The translations under genes and the position numbers were made by a program. From positions 1,116,001-1,180,000 of the forward strand of contig NZ_CP038157.1 in assembly GCF_007641235.1 (NCBI RefSeq): 64,000 nt of DNA, written 5' to 3'. The notes below the pieces were generated by a model that ran no database searches, had not been told where the DNA came from, and was given only the letters and a program-made list of their open reading frames with translations. This document shows positions 2,547-51,899 of this stretch, in pieces. Numbering within the stretch: the first letter of the stretch is position 1; each line of letters begins with the position of its first letter. The DNA comes from Corynebacterium sanguinis (GTDB lineage Bacteria > Actinomycetota > Actinomycetes > Mycobacteriales > Mycobacteriaceae).

Positions 2547-3266
2547 GTGCTGGTTACCTCCTCGGCCCACGGCAGCGTCGTGGTGGTCACCCTCAACCGG
2601 GATGAAAAGCGCAACGCCCTGTCCACTGAGTTGATACGCGAGCTCGGCAGCGCGCTCGATGACGCGCAGCACAGCGCCCGCGCCATCGTGCTCACCGGCG
2701 CTGGCTCCGTCTTTAGCGCCGGCGCGGACCTGGACGAAAACGAATTTCAGGGCAGCTTCTTCGACGACTTCTTCACAGTCATCCGCGCCCTGCGCACCGC
2801 AGCTGCACCCATCATCGCCCACGTCAACGGTCTCGCCATCGGCGCCGGCATGATGCTGACCATGGCGTGCGACATCCGCGTCGCGGCGCAAAGCGCGCGC
2901 TTTGTTCTGCCCGTCGGGGACATGGCCATCGGCGTCAACGAATGGGTCGTGCGCACGCTGACAGAACTGCTCGGCGGCTCACGAGCCCGGGCGATGCTGC
3001 TGGCAGGCGCTGCGCTGGATGTCGATACCGCCGTCACCAGCGGGTACGCCACCGCCGGTTCCTTCGAGCAGGCGATGGAGCTTGCAGAACTGGTGGCCGG
3101 GAAAGCGCCGTTAACCCTGCGCAACGTAAAAGCGGAGTTCGCGCCCGATCTGTTCACCGCAGCCGAGCGCGAAGCCGCGCTGCGTGCACCATTCGAATCG
3201 GACGACATCAAAGAGGTGGGCCGCGCCCGCTCAGAGGGGCGACCGGTGCTGTTCAGGGGGCTCTAG
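2547..3266 (+). CDS. Enoyl-CoA hydratase/isomerase (crotonase) family protein
   Basis: A crotonase-fold protein of about 239 residues starting at the GTG right after the ppk2 stop. Oxyanion-hole segments are visible: FSAGADL (near residue 58) and NGLAIGAGMMLTMACD (near residue 93). These stabilise the CoA-thioester enolate. The usual catalytic Glu positions are not clearly conserved, so hydratase activity cannot be assumed. An earlier in-frame start at 2511 would overlap ppk2. It is probably cotranscribed with ppk2. The substrate is unknown. Confidence 0.85.
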   Translation: MLVTSSAHGSVVVVTLNRDEKRNALSTELIRELGSALDDAQHSARAIVLTGAGSVFSAGADLDENEFQGSFFDDFFTVIRALRTAAAPIIAHVNGLAIGAGMMLTMACDIRVAAQSARFVLPVGDMAIGVNEWVVRTLTELLGGSRARAMLLAGAALDVDTAVTSGYATAGSFEQAMELAELVAGKAPLTLRNVKAEFAPDLFTAAEREAALRAPFESDDIKEVGRARSEGRPVLFRGL

Positions 3267-3627: not shown

Positions 3628-3931
3628 CCATAGGCCACCGTTGCTGGGCCAGATGTCACGGTGAACGGTTAAAGGGCTGCGATTTCCCAGGTCGCGGGGC
3701 GGGGTGGGGCGTTGACTGTGATATTTCGGCGGGTGAGATGTCACGGTGAAGTCCCGGCCCCGGACAAAACCCCAGGTGGGCACCGGCCTGAATCCGTTGA
3801 CTGTGACATTCCACCCGCCGAGATGTCACGGTGAAGCCCCGGCCCCGGGTAAAACTGCAGGTGGGCACCGGCCCGTAACCGTTGACCGTGACATTCCACC
3901 CCCGAGATGTCACACCCAACCGCGACGCGAC
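3628..3931 (-). repeat. 85-bp repeat array 1 (about 3.5 units)
   Basis: TGAC-type dyad starts lie at 3713, 3798 and 3883, exactly 85 bp apart, with a degenerate half-unit before them. Each unit has the arms TTGACYGTGAYAT and ATGTCACGGTGAA plus a linker containing AAAACCCCAGGT or AAAACTGCAGGT, the complement of the linker core in arrays 2 and 3. The array therefore reads in the minus direction and abuts the stop codon of the minus-strand NRPS gene at 3932. Confidence 0.92.
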
Positions 3932-6900
3932 CTACCCCCGCGGCTCGATCGGGTTGCCCTGCCACGCAGTGGACCCGGGCACCTGATCGCCGCGCATCAT
4001 CAGTGAGCCCGGCCACACGGTTGCGCCGGGCCCAATCACCGCGGCGGGCAGCGCCACGGAGTGTGCGGCGAGCGTCGCGCCGTCGCCGACGGTGACCGTG
4101 TCCAGAGACATCACGCGGTCCTGGAACAGGTGGGTTTGCACCACCGTGCCGGGTCCCACGGTCGCGCCCGCGCCCACGACGCACAGATCTGTTTCGGGGA
4201 ACCAGTAGGAGTCGATCCACGCCCCGCGCCCGACCTTCACTCCGAGGATGCGCAGCGCGACGTTGAGCTCGCCCGTGCCGTAGGCGTGGGTGAAAAACCA
4301 GGGTGCGGCGACCATCTCCACGAACTGGTCTTGCAGCTCGTTGAGCCAGACGAACCAGCTGTACAGCGGGTGCTCGCCAGGCCGGTGGCGGCCCACGCAG
4401 ACCCACTTGACCAGCGCGGTCATCAACACCGCAGCAATACCGACGGCCATGAACGCCAGCCCGCCCAGCGCGTAGGCCCACCACCCGAGCTGCACCAGCG
4501 CGAAGTGCACCAGCGCGATGAACGCGGCGGCGAGCACGGCATGTCCCATGGGTGCGAGCAGCCGCAGCGTCTCCACCGCACCGCGCTTGCGCTTCACGCT
4601 CGCGGACGGCCTGTACGTCAACGCCTCACCACCCAGCGCCGTGACCTCAACCCTGCGCATCCGCTCGGGCGGGGAGCCCCACCAGTTCGAACCGGATTTG
4701 GACTTCTTCGGCGTCGACGACAACACCGCCACGAGGGAGTTCTTGGCCAGCTTGCGGCCCGGTTGGGTGATACCGGAGTTGCCCACGAAGGCACGTTTGC
4801 CAATCGTGGTCTCGCCGGTGCGCATCCAGCCGTGGCCGAGCTCGTAGGTGCCCACGAGGGTGTCGTCGGCGAGGAATGCGCCATCCTTGATGGTGGTCAG
4901 CTTCGGAATCATCACCGCGGTGGAGACTTCCACGTCGTTGCCGACGGTGGCGCCGAGCAAGCGCAGCCAGGCCGGGGTGAGACCACCTGCGTAGACGGGG
5001 AAGAAGCGGGTGCGGGCGTCGTCCAGCAGGCGCGTGATAGTCCACAGTCTCCAGCCCTGCGCGGAGCGCACAGGTGTCACGCCGGGTCGCAGACCCAGCG
5101 AGCACAGCCGCACGCCAGCCCAGGTTAAAGTCGCGTACAGCGCGAGGTAGACAAGCGCGCCGACGGGGGCGAACAGCAGCGCACCGACGTACGGGCTGCC
5201 GGCGGTGAGCCGGATCAGTCCCACCACGGCGGCCACGCCGGCCAGCGCGGAGGCGACCGGAACGGCGGCTAAGAGCAGCGCGGTTGCCCCGTACAGCCAC
5301 GCCCAGTAGCGGCGTCGCGGCGGGTGGTAGTCGGGGAAGCGCTGTTTCGAGCGGCCCACCTTGCGGGCGGGGGACCCGGCCCATCGCGCACCCTTCTTCA
5401 CCGGCTTATCGCCGGTCACGGTGGAGCCGGGTTCGATGTGCGCGCCGGCGTGGATGTCCGCACCGGGCAGTAGGGTGGAGCGGGCCCCGACGCGCGCGTC
5501 TTTGCCGATGGTGACGGTCCCAACGCGCAGGATGTCACCGTCGAGCCAGTATCCGCTCAGATCCACCTCGGGCTCGATGGCGGCATTGTCGCCCAGGGTG
5601 AGAAGGCCGGTCACGGGCGGCACCGTGTGCAGGTCCACGCCGCGCCCGACCTGCGCCCCGAGCAGCCGCGCGAAGTACGCCACCCACGTCGAGCCCGAGA
5701 TATTCAGCGCACCGGTTGCCGCGACCCAGCGCTCGGCCGCCCACAGGCGCACATGAACCCGCCCACCGCGCGGGTAGTTGCCGGGTTGTAGCCGCCCGCG
5801 GATCGCGCGCGCACCGAGCGCTGCGAGGGGAAGGCGCCCCAGCGGGGTGCACACCACGATGAAGAGGACCGCGAGCGCGACCCAGTTCAGCGACACCCAG
5901 CCCAGCGCGGTGGCGATGATCGCCCACCACGTGACAAAGGTCGCGGCGTGCAGTGTCATCACCGGGACCTGGATCAGAGTCTGCGCCACCCGCGTGCCGC
6001 GCCCGACCGGGGCGACATCGCGCGTGACCACTTCTGCGGCAACGCCGTGGGCGTCGATGACACCCGCGAGGGCTTCGAGGCGGGGGTGGTCGTAGAGATC
6101 GCGCACGGCGATCGTCGGCACGCGCTCACGCAGGCGCGCCACCAGCGAAGCCGCCGCGAGCGAGGAGCCGCCGAGCTCGAAAAAATCCGCGTCGCGCGAC
6201 TCGGCCGGCAGACCGAGGACGTCGAGCCACACCTCGGCGAGCCACAACTCCGTCGGCGTCATCCCGGTGACCTCCACGGAGGCGGGAAGCGGCCACGGCA
6301 GGGCTTTCTTGTCCACCTTGCCGGAGGTGCGAATCGGCAACTCCTCCATGACGTGCAGGCGGGGCACGAGGGCGGCGGGCATGACCTCGGCGAGGCGCTC
6401 GCGCAACTCGGCGACGTCAAGGTCCGTGCCCGCCTCAGGGGAGAGGTAGCCGACGAGCACCGTGTCGCCGGCGCCGGTGGTCTGAACCGCCACGGCGGAG
6501 TTGTACACCCCGGGCAGCGCGGCGACGTTGGCCTCGACCTCGCCGAGCTCGATGCGGCGTCCGCCGATCTTGACCTGGTCGTCGGCGCGGCCGATAAAGG
6601 CCAGACCGTCGTCGGTGAGGCGGACGTTGTCGCCGGTGCGGTAGGCGCGATCCCAGTCGAGGCCGGGCACGGGGGCGTACTTCTCGGCGTCTTTTACCGG
6701 GTCGAGGTAGCGCGCCAGGCCGACCCCGCCGATGATCAGCTCCCCGTCGTCGGCGACGTGGAGGTCCCAGCCGTCGAGCGCGAAGCCGATGGTCACGTCC
6801 TTGCCGGGTTCCAGGCGCGCGGCGGAGGCGACGACGGTGGCCTCGGTGGGGCCGTAGGTGTTCCACATCTCGCGGTCCGGGGTGGCCAGGCGCTCGACGA

Positions 6901-7711
6901 GCTCTTGCGAGCATGCCTCGCCGCCGACGATGAGCAGGCGCACGTTGTCGAGGGCTTCGGCGGGCCAGAGCCCGGCGAGCGTGGGCACGGTGGAGACGAC
7001 GGTGATGTCGCGGCGGATCAGCCAGGGGCCCAAGTCCTGGCCGGAGCGCACGAGCGAGCGCGGCGCCGGCACGAGGCAGGCGCCGTGGCCCCAGGCCAGC
7101 CACATCTCCTCGCACGAGGCGTCGAAGGCCACCGAGAGCCCGGCGAGCACACGATCGTCGGGGCCGAGCGGGGCGTCCTGGCAGAACAGTCTCGCCTCGG
7201 CGTCGACGAACGCCGCGGCCGAGCGGTGGGTCACCGCCACTCCCTTCGGCGTGCCGGTGGAGCCGGAGGTGAAGATGATCCAGCAGTCGTCGTCAAGGTG
7301 TGGCAGGTCGGTATCGCCCGGGCGCGCCGGGGCGAGGACGCGGAAGCCCTCGTCGCTGAACAGCCCGCTGATGCCCGCCTCTCCGAAGACCAGTTCGGCG
7401 CGCTCCTCGGGGTCGTCGGCGTCGACCGGCACGTAGGCGCAGCCCGCCCACATGGTGGCCAAGATGGCGATGTAGAGCTGCCTGCTTCCCGACGCCATCC
7501 GCACGCCAATCCGATCCCCGCGGCGGATCCCGCTGCGGTGCAGCTCCGCAGCCAGGTCGCTGACCTGGTCAATGAGCTCGGCATAGGTCAGCACGTCACC
7601 GGAGCCGTCGTCGATGGCGGCGGCGTCCGGGTGGGTTTCGGCGGTGGCGGTGAGGACGTCGATAAGCGTGCGTGGGGCGGGGGCAAGCTGGGCGCGCAGT
7701 AGCGAACTCAA
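3932..7711 (-). CDS. Pls/PosA-family membrane nonribosomal peptide synthetase
   Basis: A 1259-residue protein with an adenylation domain (A3 FTSGSTGTPKG ~147, A4 FDAS with Asp197, A5 YGPTEA ~286, A7 YRTGD ~357, A8 ~374-392, A10 Lys465), a thiolation domain (LGGSS, phosphopantetheine Ser516), then three blocks of transmembrane helices alternating with hexapeptide left-handed-helix acyltransferase-like domains. This A-T-TM layout without a classic condensation or thioesterase domain is that of epsilon-poly-L-lysine synthase Pls and its relatives, which make homopolymers or small amides of basic amino acids at the membrane. The pocket carries a Glu pair after FDAS, compatible with a basic substrate (inference). 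It starts at TTG 7711 with AGGAGG overlapping the marR stop, so it is in an operon with marR. Confidence 0.9.
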   Translation of the reverse strand: MSSLLRAQLAPAPRTLIDVLTATAETHPDAAAIDDGSGDVLTYAELIDQVSDLAAELHRSGIRRGDRIGVRMASGSRQLYIAILATMWAGCAYVPVDADDPEERAELVFGEAGISGLFSDEGFRVLAPARPGDTDLPHLDDDCWIIFTSGSTGTPKGVAVTHRSAAAFVDAEARLFCQDAPLGPDDRVLAGLSVAFDASCEEMWLAWGHGACLVPAPRSLVRSGQDLGPWLIRRDITVVSTVPTLAGLWPAEALDNVRLLIVGGEACSQELVERLATPDREMWNTYGPTEATVVASAARLEPGKDVTIGFALDGWDLHVADDGELIIGGVGLARYLDPVKDAEKYAPVPGLDWDRAYRTGDNVRLTDDGLAFIGRADDQVKIGGRRIELGEVEANVAALPGVYNSAVAVQTTGAGDTVLVGYLSPEAGTDLDVAELRERLAEVMPAALVPRLHVMEELPIRTSGKVDKKALPWPLPASVEVTGMTPTELWLAEVWLDVLGLPAESRDADFFELGGSSLAAASLVARLRERVPTIAVRDLYDHPRLEALAGVIDAHGVAAEVVTRDVAPVGRGTRVAQTLIQVPVMTLHAATFVTWWAIIATALGWVSLNWVALAVLFIVVCTPLGRLPLAALGARAIRGRLQPGNYPRGGRVHVRLWAAERWVAATGALNISGSTWVAYFARLLGAQVGRGVDLHTVPPVTGLLTLGDNAAIEPEVDLSGYWLDGDILRVGTVTIGKDARVGARSTLLPGADIHAGAHIEPGSTVTGDKPVKKGARWAGSPARKVGRSKQRFPDYHPPRRRYWAWLYGATALLLAAVPVASALAGVAAVVGLIRLTAGSPYVGALLFAPVGALVYLALYATLTWAGVRLCSLGLRPGVTPVRSAQGWRLWTITRLLDDARTRFFPVYAGGLTPAWLRLLGATVGNDVEVSTAVMIPKLTTIKDGAFLADDTLVGTYELGHGWMRTGETTIGKRAFVGNSGITQPGRKLAKNSLVAVLSSTPKKSKSGSNWWGSPPERMRRVEVTALGGEALTYRPSASVKRKRGAVETLRLLAPMGHAVLAAAFIALVHFALVQLGWWAYALGGLAFMAVGIAAVLMTALVKWVCVGRHRPGEHPLYSWFVWLNELQDQFVEMVAAPWFFTHAYGTGELNVALRILGVKVGRGAWIDSYWFPETDLCVVGAGATVGPGTVVQTHLFQDRVMSLDTVTVGDGATLAAHSVALPAAVIGPGATVWPGSLMMRGDQVPGSTAWQGNPIEPRG

Positions 7712-10835: not shown

Positions 10836-12089
10836 ATGAAAGTGTGGACTTCGGTAATGGCGGCGGTGGCGCTCGCCGCTGTGGGCGGCGTCGCCGGTTT
10901 CGGTGTGGTGGCCCAGCGCGAACTCGCCGAGCTCACCGTCGCGCCGGCCTACGCGCTTCCAGCGGTGACGCCGGTGCTGGAGCCCGCAACACCGCAGCCA
11001 GTCGATACTGCGGCGCGGGCAGCGGAGGTCGCCGCGCTCGCGGCCGATGAAGCGTTGGGCACGTTCCACGCCCGCATTACCGACGCCGCCACGGGTGAAA
11101 CCGTATTCGAGTCCGCGCCGAACGACGCGCTGCGGCCTGCCTCCAGCACGAAGCTGCTCACCGGCTCGGCCGCGATCGTCGAGCTCGGCGCGACCGACAC
11201 GATCACCACCGAGGTCGTGCGTGGGTTGAACCCCGGGGAGGTGGTGATCAAGGCCGCGGGTGACGTGTGGATGAACCAGGAAAGCATCGACTCCCTCGCC
11301 GAGCAGATCGGCTCCGCCGACACGGTGCTCATCGACACCTCCCTGTGGACGGGCGAAACGATGCTGCCCGGGTGGAACCCGGTGGACATCGACGCCGGCT
11401 TCATCGCCCCGCTTGAGCCCGCGATGCTCAACGGCGGCCGCGGGCTTGGTGCCGAATCGGGCGACGTGCCGCGCTCCCACACCCCGGCGATCGATGTCGC
11501 CCAGGCGCTGGCCGATAGCGTTGGCGCCACCACCGTCGGGCCGGGCACCGCGCCGGCGGGGGCGGAGGTCGTGGCAACGACAACCTCGCCGGACCTGGTC
11601 GCGCGCCTGCGCGCGATGATGAAGGACTCCGACAACGTCATGGCCGAGGCCATTGGCCGCGAGGTGGCGATCCACCGCGGCTCCACCGCGCCCCAGGCCA
11701 CCCTCGACGTGCTCGCCGAGCACGGTTTCACCACCGCCGGCACCACCCTTACCGACTCCTCGGGCCTGTCCACCCTGAACCTGATCACGCCCGCACTGCT
11801 CGACGCGGTGCTTCTCTCAGCAGCCCAGGGCGGGGAGATCGCGCCGCTGCTCGACACCTTGCCCGTCGCCCACGGCGAGGGCACGTTGTACGATCGCTTC
11901 GAGGACTTACCTGGCCGCGGCTGGGTGCGCGCGAAAACCGGCACACTCGACTACACCAGCGCGCTCGTGGGCACCGTGACCAGCGAGAACGGCAACGTGT
12001 ACACGTTTGCTCTGCTGTCCAACGACTCCGAAATCCTCCCCGCGCGCCGCGCGATGGACACCTTGACCTCGGCCCTGAGGAAGTACTAG
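10836..12089 (+). CDS. dacB: D-alanyl-D-alanine carboxypeptidase/endopeptidase, PBP4 family
   Basis: A 417-residue penicillin-binding protein of family C with an N-terminal signal anchor (about 5-25). The three active-site motifs are present: SSTK (near 105, nucleophile Ser), SDN (near 267) and KTG (near 368). It trims or cleaves peptidoglycan cross-links outside the membrane. It is short for PBP4 because the insert domain is small, as usual in actinobacteria. Its TAG stop overlaps the GTG start of tilS, so the two are translationally linked. Confidence 0.95.
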   Translation: MKVWTSVMAAVALAAVGGVAGFGVVAQRELAELTVAPAYALPAVTPVLEPATPQPVDTAARAAEVAALAADEALGTFHARITDAATGETVFESAPNDALRPASSTKLLTGSAAIVELGATDTITTEVVRGLNPGEVVIKAAGDVWMNQESIDSLAEQIGSADTVLIDTSLWTGETMLPGWNPVDIDAGFIAPLEPAMLNGGRGLGAESGDVPRSHTPAIDVAQALADSVGATTVGPGTAPAGAEVVATTTSPDLVARLRAMMKDSDNVMAEAIGREVAIHRGSTAPQATLDVLAEHGFTTAGTTLTDSSGLSTLNLITPALLDAVLLSAAQGGEIAPLLDTLPVAHGEGTLYDRFEDLPGRGWVRAKTGTLDYTSALVGTVTSENGNVYTFALLSNDSEILPARRAMDTLTSALRKY

Positions 12090-12991
12090 TGGAGCCGTTC
12101 TGGCCGCGCTACTCCCCGCACTTCCTCGCTTGTCGACGCTCCCTGCGTGCCCTGCATGACCCAGCGGTAATCGGGCTGTCCGGGGGCGCGGACTCCCTCG
12201 CCCTCGTCGCCGCGGCCGCGGCCGAGGACAAGGATGTGCGCGCGGTGATCGTCGACCACCAGCTCCAGGAAGGGTCCGACCAGGTGGCGCGGTGTGCCGC
12301 GGAGCAGGCCGACGCCTGGGGAGTGGAGGCGTCGGTCATTGCGGTCAACGTTGGCGGGGACAACCTGGAGGCGGCCGCACGCGAGGCGCGCTACGCCGCA
12401 CTGCTGTCCTTCGGCGTCGACGTCTGGGTCGCGCACACCGCCGACGACCAGGCCGAAACGCTTCTGCTCGGCGCGCTGCGAGGCAACCCCTCGGGCATGG
12501 CCGCGCGCGGGGGAATCGACAACAGAATCCTGCGCCCGTTTCTAGGAATCCGCCGCGCCGACACCCGCGGCGCCTGCGCAGAGCTGGGGGTCACCCCGTG
12601 GGAGGATCCGATGAACGTCGACGAAAACTACCGCCGGGTCGCCGTGCGCCGCCGGGTGATCCCGCAGCTCGACGAACTCATCGGCGGCGACTGCGTTGCG
12701 GCGCTCGCCGCGACCGCCGGGCGCATCGCGGCGGATAGGGAACTGATTGAGGAACTGTGCGACACATCAGCCACATCCGACTGCGTCGAACTGGCCAATG
12801 ATGCTGCACCACTGCGCCGCCGCCGGATCGTTGCCTGGCTCCACGATTCAGGCGTGCGTGTCGACGGCGCGCAACTGCGCTCCATCGAGCGGCTCATCAC
12901 CGACTGGCACGGGCAGGCGGGCATTGACGTCGGCGGGAGTCGACGTGTGCGCCGGGTTGCCGGCAGGCTGGTGCTAGACGAACTTCGGTGA
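12089..12991 (+). CDS. tilS: tRNA(Ile)-lysidine synthase
   Basis: TilS converts C34 of tRNA-Ile(CAU) to lysidine using lysine and ATP, switching the anticodon from Met to Ile. The PP-loop SGGADS is near residue 31, and HTADDQAETLL (about 112-122) is typical. At 300 residues it is the short actinobacterial form without the long C-terminal domain. Start GTG 12089 shares one base with the dacB stop. A copy of the 13-mer CGCTTGTCGACGC lies in codons 13-17. The repeat array begins right after the stop. Confidence 0.95.
   Translation: MEPFWPRYSPHFLACRRSLRALHDPAVIGLSGGADSLALVAAAAAEDKDVRAVIVDHQLQEGSDQVARCAAEQADAWGVEASVIAVNVGGDNLEAAAREARYAALLSFGVDVWVAHTADDQAETLLLGALRGNPSGMAARGGIDNRILRPFLGIRRADTRGACAELGVTPWEDPMNVDENYRRVAVRRRVIPQLDELIGGDCVAALAATAGRIAADRELIEELCDTSATSDCVELANDAAPLRRRRIVAWLHDSGVRVDGAQLRSIERLITDWHGQAGIDVGGSRRVRRVAGRLVLDELR
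12127..12139 (+). repeat. 13-mer CGCTTNTCGACGC, exact copy
   Basis: Plus orientation, inside tilS codons 13-17, where it encodes the unusual run Ala-Cys-Arg-Arg. Confidence 0.7.
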
Positions 12992-13600
12992 TGCGTGTTG
13001 TCTGTGCTGTATTTTGTTCGGTGCAATGTCACGGTCAGCGTTTGTTGGGCGATCGCGACCTGGGGTTATGGACTCGGCTGCGCCTTGACCGTGACATCTC
13101 ACCCGGTGCAATGTCACAGTCAACGGTTGTTCGGTGGTTGCGACCTGGGGTTTTGCACTCGGCTGCACCTTGACCGTGACATCTCACCCGGTGCGACGTC
13201 ACGGTCAGCGTTTGTTGCGCGATCGCGACCTGGGGATATGCACTCGGCTGCGCCTCGACCGTGACATCTCACCCACCGCAATGTCACGGTCAACCTTCCT
13301 ACCCCAGCCGCGACCTGCAGTTTTGCCCCCACAAACACCCTGACCGTGACATCTCACCCAGCACAATGTCACAGTCAAAGTTTGTTGGGCGATCGTGACC
13401 TGCGGTTTTGCACTCGGCTGCACCTTGACCGTGACATCTCACCCAGCACGATGTCACAGTCAACGTGCCCACCGGCATCGCGACCTGCAGTTTTGCCCCC
13501 ACAAACATCCTGACCGTGACATCTCACCCAGCGCAATGTCACCGTCAACGCCTCCACCGGCACCGCGACCTGCGGTTTTTACCCCTCAACACTCCGACGC
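12992..13600 (+). repeat. 85-bp repeat array 2 (about 7 units)
   Basis: Dyad starts at 13086, 13171, 13256, 13341, 13426 and 13511 are each exactly 85 bp apart, after a partial first unit starting near 13001. Each unit is TTGACCGTGACAT, 13 bp, ATGTCACRGTCAA, then a 46-bp linker with the core GCGACCTGGGGTTTT. Linkers come in two types: A, ending CACTCGGCTGCACC, and B, ending CCCCCACAAACATCC, in the order A A A B A B B. The array lies between tilS and hpt and reads in their direction. Confidence 0.95.
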
Positions 13601-13699: not shown

Positions 13700-14353
13700 A
13701 TGACTGAGATGCACGATACCTTGGACGCTAACGTCCCGGCACATCCCTACGGTGATGATGTTGAATCGATCCTCATCTCCGAGGATCAGCTGGGCGCCCG
13801 CGTGCAGGAGCTGGCCGACTTGGTCTCAGAGAAGTACCGCGACGCCGACGACGACCTGATCCTGGTGTGCGTGCTCAAGGGCGCGGTGTTCTTCCTCACC
13901 GACTTCGCGCGGCGGCTCTCCATTCCGTGCCAGCTGGAGTTCATGGCGGTGTCGTCCTACGGCTCGTCGACAACCAGCTCGGGCGTGGTGCGCATCCTCA
14001 AAGACTTGGACAAGGACATTGCCGGGCGCGACGTGCTCATCGTCGAGGACATCATCGACTCCGGCTTGACGCTGTCCTGGCTGATGAAGAACCTCAATGG
14101 CCGCGGCCCGAAGTCGTTGAACGTGATCACTTTGCTGCGTAAGCCTGAGGTGCAGACTGCCAAGGTGGACTTGCTCGATATCGGTTTCGATATCCCGAAC
14201 GAGTTCGTCGTCGGCTACGGCCTAGACTATGCGGAACGCTACCGCGACCTGCCGTTCGTGGGCATGTTGCACCCGCGCGTTTATTCGGACGTCGACAATG
14301 GTGAGCAGCCCACCCCGGGGCGTGCCACCGGGCCCGAATCCGTCGAAATCTAA
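13700..14353 (+). CDS. hpt: Hypoxanthine-guanine phosphoribosyltransferase
   Basis: A purine-salvage enzyme joining hypoxanthine or guanine to PRPP. The PRPP loop [14 protein letters not shown] lies near residues 112-125. At 217 residues it has an N-terminal extension of about 20 residues over the usual enzyme, so the ATG at 13709 is an alternative start. AAAGG stands 6 nt before 13700. It heads the hpt-ftsH-folate cluster conserved in mycobacteria and corynebacteria, with ftsH 14 nt downstream. Confidence 0.95.
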
Positions 14354-19505: not shown

Positions 19506-20513
19506 ATGACCATGAATGCCGAGAACACGAAACGCGACAACGCTACATTGTGGATCGTCGTGCCCTTCGCACTCGCCATCGTGGGCACCGTGGTGATGCT
19601 GTTCACCAACTCGGCGAACGTCCTCAAAGTTTCCCTCATCCTCGCTTTGTGGGCGGCCGTTGCCGGGATCATCCTGGTTACCCGGCTGCGCCGCGACCGC
19701 GATCAGGCGCAGCGCGAACTGGTGGCCCGTTCCGAACGCTTCGAGGCCGAGCTCGACGCCGCGCAGGCGCGCGGCGAGGCGGACCGGGTACTGCTCGAGC
19801 GCGCGCGCAGCGGTTCTGACACCGCAAGCAGCATCGATGTCGAGGTGCTGCGCGAGATTCAGGCCGAGCTCGCCCGGCTGCGCGCGCAACTCGAAGAACT
19901 GTCCGGGAGGTACTTCGAGTACGAGCCCGCCGCGCTGCGCGCCCAGGCCCGGCGCATCGCCGAGCTGGAGGAAGCAGCCGGGTCGTCGAAGGTGGAGCCG
20001 GAGCCAGTGGCGCCGGAGCCTGAGCCGGTGGCGGTGGTCGCGGAGCCTGAGCCGATGGAGCCTGAGCCCGAGCCTGAGTCGGTGGCCGCCAAGCCTGCCT
20101 CGGGCCCGTCGACCGATGACACCGCGAAACTGCAGCGCGTGCGTGAATCGGCCCCGGCGGCCAAGCGCACGACACCCGCGCCTGGGCCGTCGCGCCCGGC
20201 GGGAGCGCCGACGTTCGATGCGGTCGCGGGCTGGGTCGGCGAGCGCCGCGAGACGATCAATGACGCCCACAATCCCCTGTCGAAGCTCATCAGCGAGCGG
20301 CAGGCGGAGAAGTTCGAAGAACCAGCGCAACCGGCGCCCAAGCCGGCGCCCAAGCCAGCTCCCAAACCGGCACCCGAACCCGCACCGAAGCCTGCTGCCG
20401 AGCCCGCACAGAAGCCAGAGACACACGGGGGCCGCCGTCGCCGCGACGAGCACGGCCGTAGCTCGCTGACCGTGGCGGAGCTTCTGGCGCGGGCCGAAAG
20501 GAACGCTGAATAG
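19506..20513 (+). CDS. Membrane protein with long Pro/Glu/Ala-rich cytoplasmic region
   Basis: A 335-residue protein with two transmembrane helices near the N-terminus (about 13-33 and 39-58), an Arg/Glu-rich, probably coiled-coil segment (about 60-155) and a low-complexity tail with repeated PEPEP and PAPKPAPK blocks (about 160-320). It matches in position and build the conserved gene following DUF3180 in corynebacteria (perhaps DUF6779). A GTG at 19503 is an equal start choice. Function unknown; the tail suggests a periplasm-independent scaffold. Confidence 0.75.
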   Translation: MTMNAENTKRDNATLWIVVPFALAIVGTVVMLFTNSANVLKVSLILALWAAVAGIILVTRLRRDRDQAQRELVARSERFEAELDAAQARGEADRVLLERARSGSDTASSIDVEVLREIQAELARLRAQLEELSGRYFEYEPAALRAQARRIAELEEAAGSSKVEPEPVAPEPEPVAVVAEPEPMEPEPEPESVAAKPASGPSTDDTAKLQRVRESAPAAKRTTPAPGPSRPAGAPTFDAVAGWVGERRETINDAHNPLSKLISERQAEKFEEPAQPAPKPAPKPAPKPAPEPAPKPAAEPAQKPETHGGRRRRDEHGRSSLTVAELLARAERNAE

Positions 20514-23724: not shown

Positions 23725-24210
23725 GTGAGCACCATCTACCCCGGCCCCAACCATGAGGAATTCGACCGCGACGGTCTGCCCATCCGCAAGAAGGGTTCCG
23801 CCGGCGCGCAGCCGTCCAACCCGTTCGCGCAAACATACGCGGCAGCGGATCCGTACGCAGCGGCGGATCCTTTCGTGACCGTGCAGCCGCAGTACCCCGT
23901 GCAGCCGAGCGCGTACCCTCCGGTGCCCTACGCGCAGACCCCGTACGCCGTGGCCCCGAAGAGCAAGATCGTGGCTGCGTTGCTGTTTTTCTTCCTCGGA
24001 TCCTTCGGTATTGGTAACTTCTACCTGCACCAGAACAAGCGGGGTATTGCGAAGCTGATACTCACCTTCGTGGGCTTTATTACGGCGATCATCCTGATCG
24101 GATTCGTTATCCTGGCGGCGGTTGGTTTCTGGGCGCTGATCGAGACGATCCTGGTGCTCGTCGGCGCCGGCGGATACGACCGCGACGGCAGGGGAGTGCC
24201 GCTGGACTAG
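23725..24210 (+). CDS. TM2 domain-containing membrane protein
   Basis: A 161-residue protein with a Pro/Tyr/Ala-rich cytoplasmic head containing a short repeat (AAADPYAAADPF near 39), then the TM2 domain: KSKIVAALLFFFLGSFGIGNFYL (a helix with the conserved G-FG-H/N-FY turn), a charged link and a second long helix pair. TM2 proteins are small bacterial membrane proteins of unknown role. GTG 23725 follows AAAGGA. Array 3 starts within 10 bp of its stop. Confidence 0.85.
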   Translation: MSTIYPGPNHEEFDRDGLPIRKKGSAGAQPSNPFAQTYAAADPYAAADPFVTVQPQYPVQPSAYPPVPYAQTPYAVAPKSKIVAALLFFFLGSFGIGNFYLHQNKRGIAKLILTFVGFITAIILIGFVILAAVGFWALIETILVLVGAGGYDRDGRGVPLD

Positions 24211-24645
24211 GCCGAGACCTTTGGGTTTCGCTGGTGACCTAGGGTTTTCGCCTGGGTATTCTTTGACCGTGACATTTCGTCGGCTGAGATGTCACGGTCA
24301 AGCCGTTTCTGGCCGCGCCGACCTGGGGTTTTGCACCACGGCGTCCGTTGGCCGTGACATTTCACCGCCCGAGATGTCACGGTCAACCCAGAACCGCGAC
24401 AACTGACCTGGGGTTTTACACTGGGCAACCCGTTGACCGTGACATTCCACCGCCCGAGATGTCACGGTCAACCCAGAACCGCGACAACTGACCTGGGGTT
24501 TTACACTGGGCAACCCGTTGACCGTGACATTCCACCGCCCGAGATGTCACGGTCAAGCCGTTTCGGTACCCGGCAACCTGGGGTTTTGTGCCTCGGAACC
24601 CCCGACCGTGACATTCCACCGACCCACAACCGCCGACCAGGGGGC
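24211..24645 (+). repeat. 85-bp repeat array 3 (about 5 units)
   Basis: Dyad starts at 24264, 24349, 24434, 24519 and 24603 are spaced 85, 85, 85 and 84 bp, after two degenerate linker remnants right behind the TM2 stop. The arms are TTGACCGTGACAT and ATGTCACGGTCAA, a perfect 13-bp inverted repeat in several units, with a TCCACCGCCCGAG centre. Linkers contain GACCTGGGGTTTT. Two neighbouring units (24434 and 24519) are nearly identical, suggesting recent duplication. The linker reads in the TM2 gene's direction. Confidence 0.95.
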
Positions 24646-24811: not shown

Positions 24812-26821
24812 GTGTCCACCACAACGTCCAGCCTGAGCGCGCAGGCGAAGGACATCCTCGACGGCGTCGGCGGCGCCGACAACATTGCCACGCTTACCCA
24901 CTGCGCAACCCGTTTGCGTTTTGAGCTTAACGACGCCTCCCTGGCCAACAAGGCCGCCCTCGAGGCCGTGCCGAAAGTCATGGGCGCCGTGCCCCAGGGA
25001 GGCTCCCACTACCAGGTCATCGTCGGCGGGGACGTCGCCAACGTGTACACGGCCATGAACAACCTGCCGGAAATGCGTGAGCGCTCCAACTCCGCCGTCA
25101 AGGCGCAGCAGCGCGCGAAGGCGCAGGGAAAGCTGCCCTGGCTCGACGCGTTTTTCGAGTACCTGTCCGATTCCTTCCGCCCGATCCTCGGCGTGCTGTT
25201 GGGCGCATCGCTGGTCATCGCGTTCGCCGCGGTGATGGACGCGCTGGGCCTCGTCGATTTCCGCGCCGAGGTCAAGAGCCCGGGCTGGCAGTTCGTCGAC
25301 GCGATGTGGAGCTCGGTGTTCTTCTTCCTGCCGGTCATGGTGGCCTACAACGCGGGCAAGAAGCTGGGGATCGACCCCTGGGTCCCGGCGGCCGTGATGC
25401 TGGCGTTGTTCACCCCGAACTTCACCGGCTTGGCGGATCACCCGGACGCCGTGACAACCCAGAACGCCCTGCTGGGCAGCGAGGTCACGCGCGTGGATGT
25501 ATTCGGCCTGCCCATGTACCTGCCCGACTACAACGGCAACGTCTTCGTGCCGCTGATCATGGCGGCGATCGCAGCAGTTGTGTACAAGGGCCTGCAGAAG
25601 ATCATTCCCTCTGCTGTCCACATGGTCTTCGTGCCGTTTTTCACCCTGCTGGTGATGATCCCCCTGACCGCCCTGGCGATCGGGCCCTTCGGTTACGCCC
25701 TCGGCGCCTGGATCGGCACCGGACTCGCGTTCTTGAACACCAACGCCCCGTTCGTTTTCGCCATCGCCATCCCAATGCTGTACCCCTTCCTTGTCCCGCT
25801 CGGCCTGCACTGGCCGCTCAACGCGCTGATGCTGGTCAACATCCAGACGCTGGGCTACGACTTCATCCAGGGCCCGATGGGCGTGTGGAACTTCGCCTGC
25901 TTCGGCGCCACCGCGGCTGTGCTGGCCATCTCCATGCGGGAGAAGGACAACGTGATGCGCCAGACCTCCGGTTCGGCGCTGGCGGCCGGCCTGTTCGGCG
26001 GCATCTCGGAGCCCTCGCTCTACGGCATCCACCTGCGCTACAAGCGCATCTACCCGCGCATGCTCGTCGGCTGCTTCGTCGGCGGCGTCACCATCGCGAT
26101 CCTGTCCGCGCCGTTCGCCGGCGTGCAAACCAACGCCTTCGTGTTCACCTCGCTTCTGACCATCTCGGTGTTTAACCCGGCGTGGGTTTACATCATCGCC
26201 ATCGCCGTGGCCTTCTTCACCTCCTTCGCGCTGATCTATATCAGCGACTACCGCACCGCGGAGGAAAAGGCTGCCGCACGAGAAGGCGCAGCGCAGTCGG
26301 CTGAACCAGCGCCCGCCGCACAGGAGCCCGCCCAAGAACCCGCCGCAGAAAAACCCGCAGCAACCACGCGCGTCCTCGCCCCCGCAGCCGGAGAAATCGT
26401 CGCGATGGAGGCGCTTGCTGATCCCGCGTTTTCCGCCGGCGCGCTCGGCCAGGCGGTCGGGGTTATCCCGGAGGCCGGCGAGGGCACGGTTGTCTCCCCG
26501 GTGGCCGGCACGGTGATCTCCGTGGCCAAGACCGGCCACGCCTACGGCATCAAGACGGCCGACGGCATCGAAATCCTCGTCCACATCGGGATCGACACGG
26601 TCAAGATGAAGGGAGAGGGCTTTGAGCCGCTGGTGGACAAGAAGCAAGAGGTCACCGAGGGCACCGAGCTGGCGCGGGTCAATTTCGCCGCGGTCAAGGC
26701 CGCGGGGTTTGACCCGACGGTGATCACCACGGTGGTCAACACCAAGGCCATGGCCGGTGTCGCCGACGTCGCCGACGGCACCGTCGGTGCGGGCGATCCC
26801 GTGCTGGAAGTAACCAGGTAG
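24812..26821 (+). CDS. bglF: PTS beta-glucoside/glucose-type transporter, EIIBCA
   Basis: A 669-residue permease that imports and phosphorylates a sugar. EIIB comes first (phospho-Cys in THCATRLRF near residue 31), then EIIC (about 115-480, eight to ten helices, with the GITEP-like motif GGISEPSLYG), an Ala/Pro/Glu-rich linker (about 485-520) and EIIA (phospho-His in EILVHIGIDT near 591). The order B-C-A is that of both BglF and corynebacterial PtsG; the RAT leader and antiterminator next door favour a beta-glucoside-type, substrate-induced system. GTG 24812 follows AAAGGAAG. Confidence 0.9.
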   Translation: MSTTTSSLSAQAKDILDGVGGADNIATLTHCATRLRFELNDASLANKAALEAVPKVMGAVPQGGSHYQVIVGGDVANVYTAMNNLPEMRERSNSAVKAQQRAKAQGKLPWLDAFFEYLSDSFRPILGVLLGASLVIAFAAVMDALGLVDFRAEVKSPGWQFVDAMWSSVFFFLPVMVAYNAGKKLGIDPWVPAAVMLALFTPNFTGLADHPDAVTTQNALLGSEVTRVDVFGLPMYLPDYNGNVFVPLIMAAIAAVVYKGLQKIIPSAVHMVFVPFFTLLVMIPLTALAIGPFGYALGAWIGTGLAFLNTNAPFVFAIAIPMLYPFLVPLGLHWPLNALMLVNIQTLGYDFIQGPMGVWNFACFGATAAVLAISMREKDNVMRQTSGSALAAGLFGGISEPSLYGIHLRYKRIYPRMLVGCFVGGVTIAILSAPFAGVQTNAFVFTSLLTISVFNPAWVYIIAIAVAFFTSFALIYISDYRTAEEKAAAREGAAQSAEPAPAAQEPAQEPAAEKPAATTRVLAPAAGEIVAMEALADPAFSAGALGQAVGVIPEAGEGTVVSPVAGTVISVAKTGHAYGIKTADGIEILVHIGIDTVKMKGEGFEPLVDKKQEVTEGTELARVNFAAVKAAGFDPTVITTVVNTKAMAGVADVADGTVGAGDPVLEVTR

Positions 26822-51464: not shown

Positions 51465-51899
51465 TTAGGCCTCGTCGCCGGCGGCGGAGGAGGACGTCGC
51501 CTTCTTCGCAGCCTTCTTGGTCGCCTTCTTCGTGGCCTTCTTCACTGTCTTCTTGGCGGCCTTTTTGGTTGCCTTCTTGGTGGCTTTCTTCGCGGTCTTT
51601 TTCGCGGCCTTCTTGGCAGTCTTCTTAGCGGCCTTTTTCGTGGTCTGCTTCGCCGCTGCTGCCGGGGCCTCGTCCGTCTCGGCCTCGGCTTCGCGCTCCT
51701 CGGCGTACTTCTTGTACACGAAGCCCTGCGGCTCGACACCGAGCATGGACATCAGGGTCACGCCGTCGAAGAAGTCGTCCGCGTAGGTGGCCACGATCCG
51801 GCGGGCATCCGCCGCCGTCTGCTCCTCAACCGCGTGGATGGCTTCGGGGGAGGGGCGAGAATCGGTGATCTTGGGTGGCACTGCAGGTGTCTCCTTCAT
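51465..51899 (-). CDS. Protein with histone-H1-like Lys/Ala-rich tail
   Basis: A 144-residue protein: an ordinary acidic N-terminal half (about 1-75), then a tail of about 12 repeats of four residues (KKAT, KKAA, KKTA), the pattern of eukaryotic H1 and of mycobacterial HupB tails, ending SSSAAGDEA. Such tails bind DNA or RNA. The repeat is mirrored in a 12-bp DNA periodicity over 51501-51660. It lies upstream of otsA in the same direction, as in C. glutamicum, and has its own TAGAAT box. The GTG at 51881 after AAGGAG is an alternative start. Function unknown. Confidence 0.78.
   Translation of the reverse strand: MKETPAVPPKITDSRPSPEAIHAVEEQTAADARRIVATYADDFFDGVTLMSMLGVEPQGFVYKKYAEEREAEAETDEAPAAAAKQTTKKAAKKTAKKAAKKTAKKATKKATKKAAKKTVKKATKKATKKAAKKATSSSAAGDEA

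Follow-up and report, generated by a model that had tools for sequence, protein, structure and literature searches.

Iteron-type origins of replication are found in phages, satellites and plasmids, with P1, F, lambda and SaPI as examples. The intergenic arrays described here share with such origins clustered short repeats that serve as half-sites around a centre, and the viral relatives of the arrays adjoin replicase genes; unlike those origins, however, the arrays have no adjoining replicase gene among the neighbours scanned, occur as 18 tandem arrays on one chromosome, and contain a 13-bp core that is common to otherwise different iteron sets. Incompatibility or titration loci, such as P1 incA and E. 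coli datA, serve the control of their own replicon. Like these loci, the arrays would offer initiator sites away from an origin and could sequester initiator, yet their target is presumably foreign and they fall into several arm families. REP/BIME arrays with their RAYT transposases, as usually described, are likewise built of intergenic alternating inverted units with two fixed linkers, whereas the three array genomes searched contain no RAYT (PF01797), the arms in the present genome are not stem-like, and the arrays have a conserved core that is not a dyad. PLE of Vibrio cholerae is also chromosomal DNA with phage-like origin features, and the arrays, like it, may hamper phage; PLE, however, is a mobile island with genes, and the arrays are gene-free. 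MITEs and insertion elements have terminal inverted repeats, target duplications and a related transposase; of the arrays, the ends look inverted relative to each other on inspection. CRISPR arrays have unique spacers, whereas the array units recur with shared linkers. The arrays resemble known iteron-type initiator sites, and their chromosomal, multiplied form is apparently undescribed among the literature matches listed. Neither the core nor the arrays are named in those matches, from a search that covers few subscription journals.

Arrays in the window and on the chromosome

The window is a stretch of 64,000 nucleotides, positions 1,116,001-1,180,000 of a genome of 2,362,885 bp (2.36 Mb) in one contig (G000). 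The initial annotation had placed three arrays in it, at 3628-3931, 12992-13600 and 24211-24645, and all three are confirmed by an arm scan and a period of 85 bp. With up to three mismatches allowed in the arms, they span 3653-3919, 13026-13548 and 24263-24614, and core copies reach slightly beyond. The arrays and their neighbours are as follows.

2547..3266, plus strand: left neighbour of array 1, enoyl-CoA hydratase family, PF00378 (gene call, Pfam)
3653..3919, minus strand: array 1 (arm scan, unit print-out, period 85, core positions); arms at 3653 (-), 3712 (+), 3738 (-), 3797 (+), 3823 (-), 3882 (+) and 3907 (-, weak); core in reverse, AAAACCCCAGGTG at 3766 and AAAACTGCAGGTG at 3851, with a diverged copy near 3681
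3932..7711, minus strand: right neighbour of array 1, protein with AMP-binding and PP-binding domains, convergent with the left neighbour
12089..12991, plus strand: left neighbour of array 2, PP-loop ATPase family, PF01171, which we take to be TilS-like
13026..13579, plus strand: array 2, the feature under study; arms alternating from 13026 (-) to 13536 (-); cores or variants at 13057, 13142, 13227, 13312, 13397, 13482 and 13567; linker types alternating
13700..14353, plus strand: right neighbour of array 2, phosphoribosyltransferase, PF00156, presumably Hpt-like
23725..24210, plus strand: left neighbour of array 3, TM2-domain protein (gene call, Pfam)
24236..24614, plus strand: array 3; arms from 24263 (+) to 24602 (+); cores at 24320, 24405, 24490 and 24575, with a diverged copy near 24236
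24812..26821, plus strand: right neighbour of array 3, PTS sugar transporter with EIIA, EIIB and EIIC

The pattern TTGACCGTGACAT-N8..20-ATGTCACGGTCAA occurs three times in the window and never in 100 dinucleotide shuffles, and most arms in the window scan carry one or two differences. Tandem Repeats Finder assigns period 85 to all three arrays, and in array 2 a period of 170 fits better than 85 (83% versus 77% match), consistent with alternating linkers, a feature that had been noted from the start. Tandem repeats are also present elsewhere in the window, at 51495-51653 (periods 12/36/48 bp) and 19992-20097 (21/27/48 bp), perhaps within genes.

With one unit as BLAST query, 90 places are found in the genome, which the arm scan sorts into 16 arrays with half-sites alternating at 26 and 59 bp. 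A covariance-model search adds two arrays, one of eight dyads near 1,409.3 kb and one of two dyads near 99.9 kb, giving 18 arrays and 98 dyads in total (88 + 2 at up to three mismatches per arm, eight at up to four); the three arrays first reported are therefore real, but fall short of the full count. In the 16 arrays, which lie in 14 stretches, the arm start-to-start distance is 26 bp across the centre in 88/90 pairs and 59 bp across the linker in 84/92, so that the near-exact 85-bp step holds; the linker exceptions of 60 bp (five) and 58 bp (one) are located at array ends. An 85-column MAFFT alignment of 74 of the 88 units contains no gap at all. In the 88-unit profile, a pair of 13-bp half-sites encloses a centre of 13 bp that is conserved in part; the linker is made up of the conserved core, GACCTGGGGTTTT, with a free stretch before and after it. 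The direction of the core is uniform within each array. As in an iteron origin, short repeats are clustered in a fixed arrangement, here phased half-sites around a core.

By a custom gene caller, the 16 arrays are all intergenic and occupy five convergent, five divergent and six co-directional gaps. Pfam searches of 30 of the 33 nearest called proteins reveal no replicase or transposase family; 28 of the 30 have a Pfam match and two have none, and the families include acetate kinase, PknG, RuvC, YebC, GlgE, histidinol dehydrogenase, a chaperonin and an SMC-like ATPase. An adjoining initiator or replicase gene, as expected of an iteron origin, is likewise absent among these 30 neighbours. An AAA_25 search of 14 array genomes gives two matches above the cut-off in G000 (462 and 500 codons), taken here for RadA and DnaB, with the rest below it. 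Six of the 18 arrays lie within 55 kb (G000 1,085,608-1,140,614; in the window, 3653-24614) at steps of about 8-13 kb, and this cluster is close to half the genome length.

The non-conserved positions of the arrays shift from G+T-rich on the left to C+A-rich on the right in 14/14 of the G000 arrays with at least three units, independently of core direction (Spearman -0.48 versus relative position). Under the usual strand-skew rule, outward bidirectional replication would leave the opposite skew, arguing that the arrays have probably never fired as origins.

A comparison with the sister species (G095) shows that the arrays are under constraint of sequence. Both flanks of 13/16 loci match G095 stretches, mostly at 86-99.7% identity and for some flanks at 79-84%; the stretches compared are those around model hits and account for these 13 loci. 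One or more steps of 26 or 59 bp survive at 11 of the 13 syntenic loci, whereas locus 1,098,668 has half-sites at other spacings in G095 and locus 1,119,653 a single weak half-site, and array copy number differs between the two species. Over the 23 best-matching same-locus unit pairs, compared ungapped (loci 55,973, 1,098,668 and 1,119,653 offering no comparable unit), the core differs at 0.030 of its sites, the arms at 0.062, the centre at 0.151 and the spacers at 0.202, so that divergence in core and arms is 3 to 7 times lower than in the spacers. Between different arrays of G000, spacer sites differ at 0.616, arms at 0.131 and the core at 0.187, with length kept. Plain recombination relics, one of the readings offered initially, fail to explain arms and core that are conserved against free spacers.

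The same comparison bears on the possibility that the arrays are selfish repeats derived from the origins of mobile replicons, gene-free and REP- or MITE-like, which spread by phage or plasmid replication or by recombination, expand in tandem and bring the host no benefit. Such repeats could account for array ends that appear inverted relative to each other by inspection, for arrays in gaps of every orientation, for copy numbers that change between sister species and for the several arm families per genome described below. However, arms, core and unit length are conserved while the spacers run free, and synteny with a model hit in G095 holds for 13/16 loci, suggesting that movement is not frequent. 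The RAYT Y1 transposase (PF01797) is also missing from all three array genomes searched (G000, G095 and G119; control genomes positive, 5/14), on which ground the RAYT/REP reading was rejected; nor do the units form REP-like palindromic stems, with no excess arm pairing in G000 and excess at few positions in G095. We regard selfish repeats as rather unlikely.

Relatives with other arms and a shared core

The dyad with at most three mismatches is present in 3/242 genomes of the genus (93, 30 and 1 copies), and the covariance model reaches 80/242 at E 0.01, many of them weakly. Arrays in related genomes have other periods: 62, 72, 83, 104 and 106 bp in G017, 72 and 84 in G218, 83-84 and 93-94 in G094, 77 and 85 in G119, and 69 bp in G067. 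In G017 and G218, the half-site contains GTCGAC, and neighbouring GTCGAC copies that enclose a core are separated by 62 bp in 73/77 cases (17 loci). Where no core intervenes, neighbours less than 50 bp apart are spaced by 10 (56 cases), 21-22 (33) or 42-44 bp (13), which together make up 102/118 and correspond to about one, two and four helical turns; some of the remaining 16 spacings come from copies that belong to no array. A single core in G010 may be flanked on either side by as many as six half-sites, all directed towards it, with same-side spacings of 20-22 bp in 22/25 (one 4-bp spacing left out). Whole-turn spacing is not universal, however: the periods of 69 (G067) and 77 (G119) are not whole turns, and a permutation over all distinct spacings, including those of non-array copies, gives 0.027, so a general rule was ruled out. 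An 85-bp-spaced pattern sought in named genomes gave 11 stretches, which on inspection look like other repeats or chance.

The part that stays constant across the genus is the core in the linker, while the arms vary, contrary to the initial emphasis on the dyad. The 13-mer GACCTGGGGTTTT occurs in 123/242 genomes, its reversed form giving 8 matches in 7 genomes. Inverted arms (score at least 11) flank 23 of 46 core copies, drawn from 40 loci chosen by the core alone from the list of 13-mer genomes, compared with 2 of 222 random positions. The armed copies come from 10/27 genomes, plus one doubtful case, and one of the 23 (L212) is low-complexity and doubtful. At least one sampled copy (L198) reads as coding by eye, and since half of the 46 copies have no arms, the count of 123/242 overstates the family. 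With further loci, partly picked by model hits, arms are found at 40 of 70 distinct core copies. Neither the presence of the core with other arms in 10/27 sampled genomes nor the 26- or 59-bp step kept at 11/16 loci in the sister species fits arrays confined to this assembly.

Arms agree within one family of one genome and differ between genomes, and more than one arm family is present in each of G010, G141 and G215, and also in G000. A single element with arms ACTGCGCAATTT lies in G000 near 874,229 (L394 8230), and G095 has a single element of another arm family (L397 5332); one of these two resembles the GTCGAC-type arms of G218. At the level of the order, the 13-mer is present in 68/298 genomes, which may be mostly armless copies, and among 20 contexts clear arms are seen only in L228, L230, L231 and L232 (3/15 genomes). 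In one order-level genome (G508, L222), the 13-mer is, by eye, the 3' half of an intrinsic-terminator-like sequence behind a tRNA-like sequence, so that the core alone is not diagnostic. Two copies in G432 (L243 5288 and L244 5179) have arms of about 21-23 bp with only 19 bp between them, and a pair that is A-T in one copy is C-G in the other, both arms having changed, by eye. Pairs of core elements flank one gene in three places, Abi_2 at L215 760-2049 (G059), Fic at L205 1083-2370 (G033) and a protein without a Pfam match at L213 1455-2788 (G056). The idea of a cassette was set aside as the main reading: in two of the three pairs (L215, L205) the repeated stretch continues well past the element, which suggests ordinary duplication.

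Do the units act as RNA or as DNA? The initial annotation had considered serial RNA hairpins in 3' UTRs, and one could imagine such hairpins as terminators or stability elements in untranslated regions, given that the dyads could fold. In G000, however, the arms pair below chance at variable positions, with pairing at arm position 3 in 36/88 dyads against 49.9 expected for independent arms and at position 6 in 40/88 against 48.8. Most arm positions in G095 behave as in G000, while three pair above expectation (25/32 versus 20.2 and, across the core, 29/37 versus 25.2 and 24/37 versus 20.5); these few positions and the two G432 arms, which change in a compensating way by inspection, are consistent with hairpins. 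Against them, loop-less perfect palindromes serve as arms in relatives, a tRNA is the only Rfam family at gathering score in nine loci searched, and only 5/16 arrays lie between convergent genes. RNA hairpins were rejected on the lack of arm covariation in G000 and of an Rfam match in the searched stretches, and a 3'-UTR or terminator role on the mixed gene orientations, leaving the RNA reading most improbable. Instead, the fixed or helical-turn spacing, together with the absence of arm covariation in G000, argues that a protein very probably binds the units as double-stranded DNA, in phase on one face of the helix. The phasing of a DNA-binding protein had been among the first suggestions, and it is the one now supported, by a unit length that stays fixed despite diverged spacers and by the helical-turn spacings of relatives; hairpins and relics fell away, and the link to phage replication genes presented below had been missed.

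The core at replication genes of viruses and mobile elements

Mobile elements in bacterial genomes carry the core beside replication genes. The prophage of G322 has two cores, with half-sites spaced by about 10 bp, at a distance of 86 bp from an AAA_25 gene; a gene for a phage capsid is close by, and core and AAA_25 are paired again on a second contig. In the integrative element of G345, only 32 bp separate a core module from a DUF3987 gene, and an integrase gene is also near.

A plain scan of viral contigs for the core finds 93 stretches, against 19 for the reversed core, an excess that we did not count as evidence, given that it may stem from use of the 13-mer in coding sequence. As to clustering of repeats, some 9-mer is present six or more times in the 130 bp to either side of the core in 12 of 79 distinct viral core contexts, compared with 3 of 288 random windows and none of 19 reversed-core contexts. 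These 12 strong-repeat contexts lie on 11 contigs, and in 9/11 the core is beside or inside a replicative helicase, primase or polymerase gene:

L338: Prim-Pol with AAA_25 at the core
L323: AAA_25 about 690 bp from the core
L284: Toprim with AAA_25 at the core
L265: D5_N with DUF5906 at the core
L302, L348, L350 and L305: DnaB_N with AAA_25; core inside the frame near its 3' end
L271: DUF5906 with DNA_pol_A; the frame contains the core

No replicase gene is seen in the frames scanned of L264, and L343 (1.5 kb) fell outside the gene scan. L353 and L355 stand outside the 9/11 count, having been retrieved by another scan in which GTGACA had to follow the core; both have Prim-Pol with D5_N and DUF5906 less than 200 bp from the core, amid TGTGACA repeats that resemble part of the G000 half-site. 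Since some contigs look related (L302, L348 and L350; also L353 and L355), they represent about eight lineages by eye. The inverted-arm test is weaker in viral contexts (5/68 versus 3/400), and two contexts with weaker repeats, L322 and L325, adjoin integrase genes. In the Streptomyces phage Xkcd426, a variant, GACCTGCGGTTTT, lies among short repeats about 480 bp before the annotated primase gene, and in Morrissey, Thonko and Rinkes, which have related replicases, there is no core (at most one mismatch) within 3 kb of the matched place. The G000 half-site dyad was found in no viral, phage or plasmid record, and neither half-sites of the GTCGAC family nor those of the AATGGAGC family were found adjoining a core, in collections that may lack the right phages.

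The position of the core among repeats at replicase genes suggests that the arrays follow the design of phage replication-origin (iteron) modules, and, judged by sequence and gene neighbourhood, it is likely that the two share ancestry or at least a plan. If so, the arrays might be relics of integrated phages or integrative elements that lost their genes and kept the origin region, later expanded by unequal crossing-over. Viral and integrative elements do carry the same module, and tandem arrays with shared arms could expand by recombination, but this would call for eighteen relics of one arm family between housekeeping genes, with no other mobile remnant among the 30 scanned neighbours, and with arms and core conserved; we consider it very unlikely. 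A core common to phages with unrelated replicases is also what one would expect of a site recognised by the host, and a host protein bound to the phased arrays might serve in organisation, segregation or insulation of the chromosome, the phages having borrowed its site. The strict phasing and the six arrays set at 8-13 kb steps in 55 kb near half the genome length agree with such an architectural role; however, arms that differ between and within genomes are unusual for a host architectural protein, and the G000-type dyad occurs in only 3/242 genomes of the genus, making this reading distinctly unlikely.

Arrays as possible decoys for replication initiators

The explanation that we favour, with a probability of roughly 0.4, is that the arrays are multiplied phage-origin-like modules acting as decoy (incompatibility) loci that bind replication initiators. 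Each array would be a row of double-stranded DNA binding sites of the form (P-core)n-P, in which P stands for a dyad whose two half-sites are particular to an element family and the core is GACCTGGGGTTTT. Half-sites that point at the conserved core from both sides would follow the plan also seen at phage and integrative-element replication genes, where it looks like an iteron origin; the viral module may thus be an origin whose initiators bind the half-sites. On the chromosome, the module would have been tandemly multiplied between ordinary genes, with no initiator gene among the scanned neighbours, at a spacing that would keep bound protein on one face of the helix. The arrays could then catch in trans the initiators of incoming phages or mobile replicons and would either titrate them or themselves couple to the origins of the invaders, by handcuffing of the kind known from iteron incompatibility; the presence of more than one arm family in a genome might answer to several kinds of invader. 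The decoy idea is favoured by the absence of an initiator gene among the scanned neighbours, by the strict phasing and by the presence of several arm families per genome, and is weakened by the failure of the searches to find this half-site dyad in any phage or plasmid, or either of two other arm families next to a core.

A broader proposal, which we hold to be speculative and rather unlikely, is that chromosomes of the genus and its relatives keep phased copies of the origin modules of phages and mobile replicons as a gene-free, sequence-specific immune store that would bind the initiators of invaders and block their origins, with arm families gained and multiplied over time and the arm sequence setting the specificity.

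If the link to phage origins is true, the 13-bp core would help to locate origins in many phages of this group of bacteria, and it would be new for one core to be common to origin-like regions of phages and integrative elements whose helicases and primases are unrelated. The phased arrays of several families would be either a protein-free anti-phage device or origin-derived repeats living on the chromosome, and helical-turn spacing in natural arrays of one family would amount to a natural experiment on phased protein assembly. Rows of chromosomal sites laid out on the plan of those at replication genes of viruses and mobile DNA may, finally, let the chromosome catch the replication proteins of its invaders.
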